The notes beneath the pieces were generated by a model, which ran no database searches, was not told the DNA's origin, and was given only the letters and a program-made list of their open reading frames with translations. 64,000 nt of DNA from Halalkalicoccus sp. CG83 (GTDB taxonomy: Archaea > Halobacteriota > Halobacteria > Halobacteriales > Halalkalicoccaceae). Numbering within the stretch: the stretch's first letter is position 1; each line of letters begins with the position of its first letter. Location: assembly GCF_037081715.1 (NCBI RefSeq), contig NZ_JAZDDH010000001.1:1798001-1862000 (forward strand). The letters run 5' to 3'. The position numbers and the translations under genes were made by a program. Of the stretch, positions 14,138 to 50,088 are shown in pieces.

Positions 14138-14291
14138 CTCACGGGAAATCGACGCCGACCGCAGGAGCTGTACGGTGGACGACCATCGAAGCCGTCCCAC
14201 GCCACGGCCGACCCGCCGAGCGGACTAGCTCGAGATATTAGCCGATGATACGACCATCATATACTTGTGGCGGCGCGGCGGTCCCTCCGAC

Positions 14292-14957
14292 ATGGGATTC
14301 ACCGAGGCGCTCGAGCCCGAGGCCGAGCCGATCTGGGAGGCCATCCACGAGCACCCGATGGTGCAGGGGATCGGCGACGGATCGCTCGACGAGGCGCCGT
14401 TTCGCCACTGGGTAAAGCAGGACTACGTCTACCTGATCGAGTACAACCGCGTCTTCGCCTACGGTGCGGCCAGAGCGTCGTCGCTGGATCGGATCGGAAC
14501 CTTCGCCGAACTGCTCTCGGAGACGGTCTCGACCGAGATGGATCTCCACCGCTCGTACGCCGCGGAGTTCGGAATCAGCGAGACGGAACTCGAGGAAACC
14601 GAGCCGTCGCCGACGACGCGGGCCTACACCGACTTCCTCGTCCGGACGGCGGCGACCGAGGAGTTCGGCGAACTGGTCGCCGCGCTGCTGCCGTGCATGT
14701 GGGGGTTCAACGAGACCGGAAAGCGGCTCGCGAGCGAGGGCCTGCCCGACCACGAGGGCTACGCCGAGTGGATCGAGATGTACTCGAGCGCGGAGTTCAC
14801 CGAACTCGCGGACTGGTGTAAGGGGCTGATGGACGAGGTCGCCGCCGACGCGAGCGAGGCTCGAAGGGAGCGCTACCGCGAGACGTTCGTGACCTCCGCG
14901 CGCTACGAGTACCTCTTCTGGGACGCCGCCTGGAACGAGGAGGGGTGGCCGGTATGA
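14292..14957 (+). CDS. tenA: TenA family protein, Cys type (aminopyrimidine aminohydrolase/thiaminase II)
   Basis: This 221-residue helical protein matches TenA, which salvages thiamine breakdown products by hydrolysing aminopyrimidines. Expected active-site residues are present: Asp44 and tyrosines in KQDYVYLIEYN, Cys135 in LLPCMWGF, and Glu206 in RYEYLFWD. A TATA-like element (CATATACTTG, about 14254-14263) lies about one promoter length before the ATG, so the transcript is nearly leaderless. Its stop overlaps the next gene's start by four bases. An in-frame TTG further upstream would lie inside the promoter and was rejected. Confidence 0.93.
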   Translation: MGFTEALEPEAEPIWEAIHEHPMVQGIGDGSLDEAPFRHWVKQDYVYLIEYNRVFAYGAARASSLDRIGTFAELLSETVSTEMDLHRSYAAEFGISETELEETEPSPTTRAYTDFLVRTAATEEFGELVAALLPCMWGFNETGKRLASEGLPDHEGYAEWIEMYSSAEFTELADWCKGLMDEVAADASEARRERYRETFVTSARYEYLFWDAAWNEEGWPV

Positions 14958-15655
14958 GCGGCAACGATAACGACGCCCCCGCGTCGTTCGACGCGTACGC
15001 GGCCGGGCGCGAGGAGCCGCGTTTCACCGACTGGCTTTGCGAGCGCGCGGAGCCCGACTGGACGGACGCGACGACCCACGCGTTCGTCGAGGAGCTCGGC
15101 GCTGGCACGCTCGCCGACGAGGCGTTCGCTCGATATCTCGTCCAGGACTACGCGTTCGTCGAGACGCTGGTCTCGCTCGTCGGCTACGGCGTCGGTCAGG
15201 CACCGACGATGGAGGCGAAGGCCGAACTCGCGGCGTTCCTCGGCGCGATCACCACCGACGAGGACGACTACTTCCGTCGATCGTTCGAGGCGCTCTCGGT
15301 TCCGGAGTCCGTCTGGGTCGACCCCGAGATGAACGAGACGACCGCCGCGTTTCGCGACCTGCTCTTGCGTGCGGCTCACGAGGGCGGCTACACCGAGACG
15401 CTCGCGGTGCTCGTCCCCGTCGAGTGGATCTACCTCGAGTGGGCGACGGCGACCGACGACCATCCCGAGGCGTTCTACCTCGCCGAGTGGATCGAACTTC
15501 ACGCGACGCCGGCGTTCGAATCGACCGTCGGCTGGCTGCGCTCCGAACTCGACGAGCGTGGTCCCGCGCTTTCCGAGGATCGTCAGAGGGGAATCGAACG
15601 GCTGTTTCGACGCGCGGTGGCGCTCGAGGTCGCGTTCTTCGACGCGGTCTACTGA
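14954..15655 (+). CDS. TenA family protein, Glu type
   Basis: This 233-residue TenA paralogue overlaps the preceding tenA by ATGA. The helix layout is retained (RYLVQDYAFVETLVSLVGYG and RRAVALEVAFFDAVY), but the catalytic cysteine is missing: the equivalent segment reads LVPVEWIYLEW, with Glu157 near the Cys position. That places it with the TenA_E class, whose members in other organisms act on thiamine-related formylamino- or aminopyrimidines. The pair may act in sequence on one salvage route. The alternative, a regulatory or inactive paralogue, cannot be excluded by sequence. Confidence 0.9.
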   Translation: MSGNDNDAPASFDAYAAGREEPRFTDWLCERAEPDWTDATTHAFVEELGAGTLADEAFARYLVQDYAFVETLVSLVGYGVGQAPTMEAKAELAAFLGAITTDEDDYFRRSFEALSVPESVWVDPEMNETTAAFRDLLLRAAHEGGYTETLAVLVPVEWIYLEWATATDDHPEAFYLAEWIELHATPAFESTVGWLRSELDERGPALSEDRQRGIERLFRRAVALEVAFFDAVY

Positions 15656-48160: not shown

Positions 48161-48706
48161 CTACCGTAGCGTTTCGTGGGTCCCCGCCCACTCGATTAGA
48201 CGTTCCCTCGCCTTCCGCTCCCGGCGCGAGATCGGATCGTTCGTTCCCAGTTCCTGGCCCGAGAAGGCGTTCATGACGACGAGTTCGGCGTCCGCACAGG
48301 CGGCGAGCAGCGCCTCCACGTCGCTCCCCTCGTGCTGAAAGGGGATCGTCGCGTCGTTGACGAAGACCGCCTCCGCCTCCGGCGCCTCCTCGATCAGCAC
48401 CCTCGCCCGCTCGGCGTTCTCGCGGGCGAGTCGTCTCGCCTCCGTGGGCGTCTCGCCCTCCGCCCGGGGTGCGTGGGCGTCGAGAGCGCCGATCCACGCT
48501 GTCTCGGGGATGTCGACGAACCGCGAGAGACGTCCACCTAGCAGGACGCCGTCGCGCTCGATCTCGGGGGCGAAGTCGAGGATCACGACCCCTTCGGCGT
48601 CGTGGGCGCCGATCCAGCGCTCGAGCGTCCGGGCGGTCAGCCGGGTCTTCCCGACGTTCGAGGGGCCGGTCAGGAGCACCCGCCCCCGGAGAGGGAGATC
48701 GCTCAC
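48161..48706 (-). CDS. P-loop ATPase/NTPase coupled to NRAMP-like transporter
   Basis: This 181-residue protein starts with GTG and has a Walker A GPSNVGKT (about 14-21), a following strand GVVILDFAPEIERDG, and a second conserved part ending AVFVNDATIPFQH and LVVMNAFSGQELG. It resembles small nucleotide-binding proteins such as mobilisation or kinase-like P-loop domains, but I cannot name a family. Its start overlaps the stop of the upstream transporter gene (GTGA), which implies coupled translation and a shared process. Confidence 0.82.
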   Translation of the reverse strand: MSDLPLRGRVLLTGPSNVGKTRLTARTLERWIGAHDAEGVVILDFAPEIERDGVLLGGRLSRFVDIPETAWIGALDAHAPRAEGETPTEARRLARENAERARVLIEEAPEAEAVFVNDATIPFQHEGSDVEALLAACADAELVVMNAFSGQELGTNDPISRRERKARERLIEWAGTHETLR

Positions 48707-50037
48707 GTCTCCGTCGGCGTGCCGATCCGCGTGGCCGCGCGGACGAACTTCACGGCGAGCAGGACGGTCGCCAACCCGATCCCGGCGGCGAAGGCGACGA
48801 CGAACGCCGAGAGGGGATCGGTGACGACGGCGGCCTGTTCGCGGACGAACGTGCTGGCGGTGACCAGCGCCACGCCGAGCAGCACGAGACCCCCGAGGTT
48901 CGCCGCAAGCGGGGCGGTCTCGTCGACGATCGCCGGATCGTTGAGTAGATAGAGGATCAGAACGATCGCGAACGGCGTCCCGACGAGGCCGAAGGCGAGC
49001 ACCAACACGAGCAGCGAGAGGAACGACCCTCCGAGAAAGGCACCGGCGGCGGAGGCGAGCGCGACGCCGGCGAGCAGCACGCGGTAGCGCGGGTCGTCGA
49101 TCGATCGCCCCCAGTCGAGCTTGTCGGCGAGGAGATACGGCGGGACGACCGTGTTGCCCCCGAGCGTCGAGACCGCGGCGCCGAGCAGTCCGAACAGGAA
49201 CAGCCACGTCGCGTACGTGCCGACCGTCGGTTCGAGCGCGCGTCCCGCCTCGACCGCGGTGATCGATGGCCCCTCGAGTACGCTCGCAGCGACGAGGAAG
49301 ATCGCGAGGCTGTAGCCCCCGAAGGCGACGAGCATCGAGCTTCCGACGTCGAACCGGGCCAGCCCCGCGTCCGCTCGGGTCCACCCTCGCGCACGCATCG
49401 TGTAGCCCTGCATCGTCAGCAGGGTGACGTGGACTGCGCCGCCGAGGACGCCCGCGGCGACGAGCGCGCCGTCGAGCCCGGCGGGGATTCGGGGGAGGAG
49501 CCCGCTCGCGGCCGCACCGGCGTCGATGGGGACGACGAGCGCGGTCGCGACGAACGCGAGCACGACCAGCGAGACGAGCAGCTTCGCGCCGAGCTCCGCG
49601 ATCCGATAGCCGCCGCTCGCGAGACCGACCGCGAGCACCACCGCCCAGACGACCCCCCAGAGTCGAGCGTCGACCCCGGTCAGGACGGCGCTCACGTCCG
49701 CGACCGTCTTCATGATCACCAGCTGGGCGAGACCCGCGGCGAGCACGACGTCGATCACCAGCACCCAGGCCCAGCCCTCACCCAGGTGGCGTTCGACGGT
49801 GGTCACGATCCCCTCCTCGGTGAGAAGCCCCAGCCGAGCGGCGAGATACTGCCCGACCGTGCCGAGCACCGCCGATCCCACCACGACCCAGAGGAGCGTA
49901 TAGCCGTAGCCTGCTCCGGCGGCGAGCAGGCTGGCCATCGTCGCCGGCCCCGCGGCGATCGCTCCCGCGATCCAGGTCGGCCCCAGCCGCGACGCGTACG
50001 ACTCGACCCGTTCCTCGTCCGTCGATTCTACGCTCAT
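48703..50037 (-). CDS. NRAMP-family-like transporter with divergent metal site
   Basis: This 444-residue protein has about 11 membrane spans and the overall NRAMP pattern: a first span GPTWIAGAIAAGPATMASLLAAGAGYGYTLLW and a sixth-span region GAVHVTLLTMQGYTMRARGW. In typical NRAMP proteins the first helix has DPGN with metal-binding Asp and Asn, and helix 6 has a metal-binding Met (MPH); here those positions read AGPAT and GAVHV. The substrate may therefore not be Mn2+ or Fe2+. It is followed by the overlapping P-loop gene. Confidence 0.82.
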   Translation of the reverse strand: MSVESTDEERVESYASRLGPTWIAGAIAAGPATMASLLAAGAGYGYTLLWVVVGSAVLGTVGQYLAARLGLLTEEGIVTTVERHLGEGWAWVLVIDVVLAAGLAQLVIMKTVADVSAVLTGVDARLWGVVWAVVLAVGLASGGYRIAELGAKLLVSLVVLAFVATALVVPIDAGAAASGLLPRIPAGLDGALVAAGVLGGAVHVTLLTMQGYTMRARGWTRADAGLARFDVGSSMLVAFGGYSLAIFLVAASVLEGPSITAVEAGRALEPTVGTYATWLFLFGLLGAAVSTLGGNTVVPPYLLADKLDWGRSIDDPRYRVLLAGVALASAAGAFLGGSFLSLLVLVLAFGLVGTPFAIVLILYLLNDPAIVDETAPLAANLGGLVLLGVALVTASTFVREQAAVVTDPLSAFVVAFAAGIGLATVLLAVKFVRAATRIGTPTET

Positions 50038-50088
50038 CGACCGGACTACACGCCCGGCGTATATAATCGCGTGGTATTACTCGAGTGT

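Follow-up and report, generated by a model that had tools for sequence, protein, structure and literature searches.

In bacteria, ThiW-ThiM unites a thiazole transporter with a hydroxyethylthiazole kinase. The archaeal gene pair described here would follow a similar logic, with a thiazole importer adjoining a thiazole kinase in a thiamine regulon, but with an Nramp fold instead of ThiW and a P-loop protein instead of ThiM. Another closely related group comprises the Slc11/NRAMP metal carriers (MntH, DMT1) and the outgroups of PF01566, which have the Pfam family and the LeuT-type fold in common with the carrier of our window. In contrast to these, our carrier has GPA[T/S] in place of DPGN, no MPH in TM6, a thiamine-type operator and a P-loop partner. 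The importance of DPGN in TM1 and of MPH in TM6 for Nramp is described in an excerpt of PMC8041893, and according to an excerpt of PMC10606218, 'orphan' and NRMT outgroups with a diverged metal site belong to PF01566.

The window is a stretch of 64,000 nucleotides from the haloarchaeon Halalkalicoccus sp. CG83. On its minus strand lie the gene of an Nramp-superfamily carrier of 444 amino acids (48703..50037), predicted to import thiazole as a thiamine precursor, and the gene of a small P-loop protein of 181 amino acids with a GTG start (48161..48706), predicted to replace the thiazole kinase ThiM. When searched against Pfam, the carrier matched Nramp (PF01566) with 225.2 bits (E = 1.7e-66; cut-off 29.8), and no other Pfam family was found at E values up to 1. 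The best match of its AlphaFold2 model (pLDDT 84.7) in the PDB was DraNramp (6d91; Z 41.6, rmsd 2.5, 381 residues), followed by further structures of the Nramp family, among them EleNRMT (Z 38.2), while amino-acid carriers reached Z 28 and lower. The profile search thus places the transporter inside NRAMP, as the initial annotation had supposed, and the model is closest to Nramp structures.

The initial annotation had further proposed that AGPAT replaces DPGN in the first helix and that helix 6 lacks the usual Met, and both observations were borne out. In a phmmer alignment with DraNramp (8e5s), GPAT of the carrier (residues 30-33; codons at 49939..49950, minus strand) lies opposite the DPGN of TM1, at the canonical Nramp place, and the TM6 stretch 'GAVHVTLLTMQ' lies opposite 'ATVMPHVIYLH' of DraNramp with HVT facing MPH; D, G and N of TM1 and the Met of TM6 are therefore replaced. 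GPAT or GPAS was found in 97 of 99 distinct rows of carrier orthologues, the remaining two being truncated at the start, and TM6 reads AVH[VI][TA]L in 97 of the 99, with two rows unreadable. Since PF01566 and the Nramp fold were matched and DPGN/MPH were not, the carrier is an Nramp by family and fold, yet it does not have the defining motif of the metal-binding position. The genome of the window also encodes a second Nramp paralogue (locus L002, G000:C2:649207-650346), which is 30 percent identical to the carrier and has GPGT in TM1; it is another Nramp without DPGN.

The P-loop protein carries the Walker A motif GPSNVGKT (residues 14-21; codons at 48644..48667, minus strand). G14, G19, K20 and T21 are invariant in 28 sequences, and these homologues show little or no variation in the blocks GxxxxGKT, FAPExxRDGxLLGG, APR and FVND.T.P.Q. 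Searches of the protein against Pfam, NCBIfam, PHROGs and PDB sequences gave nothing above cut-off, with only weak AAA matches; PF02110, the ThiM family, did not match the protein at E values up to 1 or any of 28 family members at 0.1. Its AlphaFold2 model is confident (pLDDT 93.1, pTM 0.91), and the closest solved folds are the small-molecule transferases and kinases CobA (Z 13.0), CobU (Z 12.3) and thymidine kinase (Z 12.2), which superpose with an rmsd of about 3 Å over 132-143 residues. In sequence, however, the protein is only 12-17 percent identical to CobA, CobU and type II thymidine kinase, with no sequence-level match, and its conserved blocks FAPE..RDG.LLGG and FVND.T.P.Q differ from theirs. 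Because Rho, KaiC and RecA types score almost as high as these three (Z 13.0 to 10.7 across the six), the fold does not identify a kinase. As modelled, the P-loop protein is a RecA-like nucleotide-binding core, and this fold is silent on the reaction. On the plus strand, at a distance of about 0.9 kb beyond the end of the P-loop gene, lies a gene encoding a glutaredoxin domain fused to a thioredoxin reductase-type domain (PF00462 + PF07992; 45919-47244).

The stop codon of the carrier and the start of the P-loop gene overlap by 4 bp (GTGA). The P-loop gene was located directly downstream of the transporter and on the same strand in 47 of 47 named loci, in 30 of 30 further loci taken from the best-scoring matches, and, by coordinates, in 12 of 12 plasmid records with a P-loop match; the three sets are not independent, because some organisms are common to them. 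The gap between the genes was 28 and 97 nt in two of the named loci and lay between -8 and +9 nt in the remaining 45. It is nearly certain that the gene pair is conserved and that its adjacency lies far beyond chance. The initial annotation had noted the overlap of the transporter stop with the start of a small P-loop gene of no known family, which agrees with the GTGA and with the absence of a Pfam or NCBIfam match, and had asked about conservation of the pair across haloarchaea, where a transporter adjoined every P-loop gene that we examined. Its proposal of a transporter with altered substrate paired with a dedicated NTPase is likewise supported by the position inside PF01566 and the conserved adjacency.

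Among 391 genomes of the class, 95 had a match to the P-loop gene, of which one with a weak match (G301, E = 6.5e-4) was dropped to give 94 pair genomes. In a sample of 392 genomes of the phylum, whose share from outside the class is not stated, 17 genomes had P-loop matches, all in the order of the window; one of the 17 (G037) was a weak partial match (E = 7e-4). Many haloarchaea have a related solo transporter (about 63-73 percent identical) and no P-loop gene (L039-L041, L045 and others). In annotated plasmid records the pair is named 'divalent metal cation transporter' and 'hypothetical protein'.

It was in such annotated plasmids that TenA genes were first noticed beside the pair, and also beside a solo carrier, as in Haloferax larsenii. 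Neighbour representatives were typed above cut-off as TenA by TIGR04306, as ThiDN by the domains PF08543 + PF10120 and as ThiB by TIGR01254. Within about 6 kb of the pair, TenA was found in 18 of the 47 named loci, ThiDN in 10, ThiB in 7 (all Haloarcula) and an SSS symporter in 11; at least one of TenA, ThiDN or ThiB was present in 27 loci and none in 20. Across the 94 pair genomes, TenA lay no more than 10 kb from the pair at 25 of 96 sites and in 12 of 26 genera, compared with 0.53 sites expected for 3.6-Mb genomes. TenA was present anywhere in 80 of the 94 pair genomes and in 181 of 297 others. No TenA, ThiDN or ThiB was found near 18 solo loci (L134-L151), and three solo carriers (L132, L152, L153) had TenA close by. 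The clusters of three loci (L067, L076, L091) contain genes with PF10120 and an HTH stretch, the HTH of L076 being below cut-off. We take this HTH-ThiN architecture to be ThiR, a name that occurs in an excerpt of PMC12029414.

Two further gene types recur in these surroundings. Of the 47 named loci, 8 have a PhyH-like dioxygenase gene (PF05721) immediately before the carrier (e.g. L105:3835-4611 and L083:3844-4617), and in L087 this gene is divergent from the carrier; it is possible that it encodes an enzyme of the thiamine pathway. SSS-family symporters lie near TenA genes in 11 named loci and at L129:3889-5451, where the gene is annotated as a sodium:proline symporter, and are probably carriers of a thiamine precursor.

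We then considered the upstream regions. A de novo motif search in 53 non-redundant regions upstream of transporters yielded the palindrome GGTnnTAnnACC, with a log-likelihood gain of 139.6 compared with 20.2 for one shuffled set. At 9 bits, the resulting matrix matched 17 of 21 upstream regions of tenA genes that are first in their operon, against 2.1 percent of random 135-bp segments, as well as thiDN (5 of 9, some sharing their intergenic region with TenA) and PdhA (3 of 5); no match was obtained upstream of ThiB (0 of 2) or SSS (0 of 1). At the same threshold, the matrix matched thiC in 19 of 19 and thi4 in 23 of 29 cases versus 19 of 292 other genes, all in equal windows of 210 bp. A first comparison had used a longer window for thiC and thi4 than for the controls and was repeated with equal windows (controls at 135 bp: 17 of 292); one weak Thi4 locus (L203) had been dropped, leaving the 29 thi4 regions. 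The reverse test, in which circularity is avoided by deriving the matrix from thiC and thi4 alone, gave matches upstream of 42 of 71 transporters (32 of 49 in pairs, 10 of 22 solo) versus 15 of 293 controls. Among these 15 are several genes that diverge from the transporter or are PhyH genes at the head of its operon; all remain included in the 15. Both motif discovery and the reverse test were run after removal of near-identical upstream regions; in the latter, 19 were removed and 6 were too short.

In the window, the operator AGTAATACCACG (50070..50081, minus strand; 13.3 bits with the matrix from thiC and thi4 upstream regions only) is located 44 nt before the transporter ATG and just past the stop of an upstream MscS gene. 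A second operator, GATGATACGACC (14244..14255, plus strand; 10.5 bits with the matrix from transporter upstream regions), precedes a TenA (thiaminase II) gene of the same predicted regulon (14292..14954, plus strand; TIGR04306, 199.8 bits, cut-off 130). Downstream of it follows a second TenA-family gene (14981..15643, plus strand; PF03070, 74.4 bits), and these tandem genes, operator included (14244-15643), lie about 33 kb from the pair. A plain search of the window for the operator pattern gave 5 matches against 4.5 expected, which is not significant alone; it is the comparative tests that carry the case for the operator. If a transporter is not the first gene of its operon, the site can precede the gene that is, for example PhyH in L083 and L105. 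The upstream region of the GPGT paralogue L002 scored 2.5 bits with the thiC and thi4 matrix and is without the operator, and no Rfam match such as a riboswitch was found in the window at gathering scores. ThiM operons were also considered as members of the regulon, but they are weak candidates, with an operator before only 5 of 29 ThiE-ThiM operons. The operator common to thiC and thi4, together with the clustering with TenA, ThiDN and ThiB, argues for a thiamine regulon rather than metal uptake, and the pair very probably belongs to the predicted ThiR-type regulon.

The gene for hydroxyethylthiazole kinase, ThiM, showed a reciprocal distribution to the P-loop gene. It was present in 3 of 40 pair genomes versus 39 of 40 genomes with a solo transporter (Fisher p = 8e-18). 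These 80 transporter-bearing genomes were hand-picked across genera before the ThiM result was seen, 40 being drawn from the 94 pair genomes and 40 from the solo genomes, a larger group without an exact count. ThiM was counted at more than 200 bits, with the next matches appearing only from 37 bits down; the weaker PF02110 matches, some above the Pfam cut-off of 27 (66 of the 80 genomes in all), were assumed to be other ribokinase-like proteins. The contrast between pair and solo genomes recurs within families f1, f2, f3, f4, f5 and f9. On a transporter tree of 73 of the 80 genomes, the two traits, the P-loop gene and ThiM, both changed 13 times. Among eight independent contrasts on supported branches, an average of 7.4 had ThiM moving against the P-loop gene, and none had it moving along with it (median p = 0.016). 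Seven solo genomes whose transporter coordinates were unlisted (G002, G014, G068, G221, G237, G260 and G313) were left out of the tree, and its table is cleaner than the full one because G002 is the sole solo genome without ThiM. The exceptions in the full sample are thus G002, which has neither of the two genes, and three pair genomes with both. In one of the latter (G322), the transporter (L272) looks frameshifted, which could mean that a redundant pair is decaying or that the sequence contains an error.

The simplest reading of this reciprocal distribution is that the P-loop protein does the job of ThiM, and in that case the carrier common to both groups of genomes would import the ThiM substrate, hydroxyethylthiazole. 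From these comparisons we infer the substrate, direction and energy source of transport and the kinase activity of the pair. That the carrier transports some thiamine-related compound appears very likely from the genomic evidence. The more specific proposal, that it imports thiazole and that the P-loop protein is a non-homologous thiazole kinase replacing ThiM, is probably correct.

According to this proposal, the two genes would form a thiamine-salvage module under the haloarchaeal thiamine regulator of the ThiR type. The Nramp-fold carrier, its metal site lost, would import 4-methyl-5-hydroxyethylthiazole, the thiazole part of vitamin B1, with an ion gradient as the probable driving force, as for other LeuT-fold carriers. 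The P-loop protein would phosphorylate the thiazole with ATP, taking the role of ThiM without kinship to it, and ThiE/ThiN would then join the thiazole phosphate to HMP-PP, with the HMP coming from ThiC or from TenA salvage. In a sample of 30 genomes, ThiC was not found in 11 and Thi4 was strongly matched in 29; from such gene content, many haloarchaea look like pyrimidine auxotrophs. Carrier and P-loop kinase might even act as one complex in which the thiazole is phosphorylated on arrival (vectorial phosphorylation), but we regard this extension as distinctly unlikely. If true, the complex would amount to a group translocator for a vitamin precursor, combining an Nramp fold with a P-loop kinase of a new family.

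The main rival explanation is that the carrier imports thiamine itself, with the P-loop protein serving as the thiamine kinase (or pyrophosphokinase) that is otherwise missing in haloarchaea, because TPK (PF04263) was above cut-off in none of the 80 transporter-bearing genomes, with a single match below cut-off in G021. For the same reason, no complementarity between the P-loop gene and TPK was seen. Membership in the thiamine regulon and the thiamine-ABC genes (ThiB) near the pair in the seven Haloarcula loci would also fit such a role. However, it leaves the mutual replacement of the P-loop gene and ThiM unexplained, and the genomes with solo transporters would equally be without a thiamine kinase by the same search. 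We consider it unlikely, if still conceivable.

Alternatively, the carrier could import HMP or aminopyrimidine for salvage by TenA and ThiD, with the P-loop protein acting elsewhere in the pathway. TenA is the commonest thiamine gene near the pair, and the 11 genomes without ThiC would need pyrimidine or thiamine from outside. Against this, 14 of the 94 pair genomes have no TenA, ThiDN-type proteins (PF08543) should already provide HMP kinase activity, and the gene that complements the P-loop gene is ThiM, a thiazole enzyme. Moreover, each of the 11 loci with a separate SSS symporter near the pair also has TenA. Import of the pyrimidine by our carrier appears quite improbable.

Tight gene coupling and the adjacency at every P-loop locus examined would also be expected if the P-loop NTPase energised or gated the carrier. 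We set this aside as very improbable, since many genomes have a related carrier but no P-loop gene, and 39 of the 40 solo-carrier genomes have ThiM instead; a salvage kinase standing in for ThiM is the more likely role suggested by the gene distribution. Finally, the carrier may have kept its import of divalent metals and be part of the thiamine regulon because Thi4 or ThiC need iron. This reading accords with its PF01566 membership and Nramp fold but is barely plausible given the clade-wide replacement of D, G and N in TM1 and of the TM6 Met, and it does not explain the exchange of the P-loop gene and ThiM.

Titles and abstract openings of the literature on Nramp with thiamine or TenA, or with P-loop proteins in haloarchaea, made no mention of the pair, and the excerpts of PMC8305020 and PMC4215014 contained nothing on a transporter/P-loop pair. 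Judged from annotations and from literature at the level of titles and abstracts, the pair may so far be unrecognised, and it may be partly known already. An excerpt of PMC12029414 reports thiM in all Natrinema and in only two Haloarcula species and suggests dependence on thiamine from outside or on de novo synthesis. This reported gap of thiM in Haloarcula is one that the P-loop gene would fill. Taken together, the evidence points to transport of an organic fragment of a vitamin by an Nramp fold, despite its annotation as a metal transporter, and the pair offers a functional handle on the Nramp relatives that lack the metal site.
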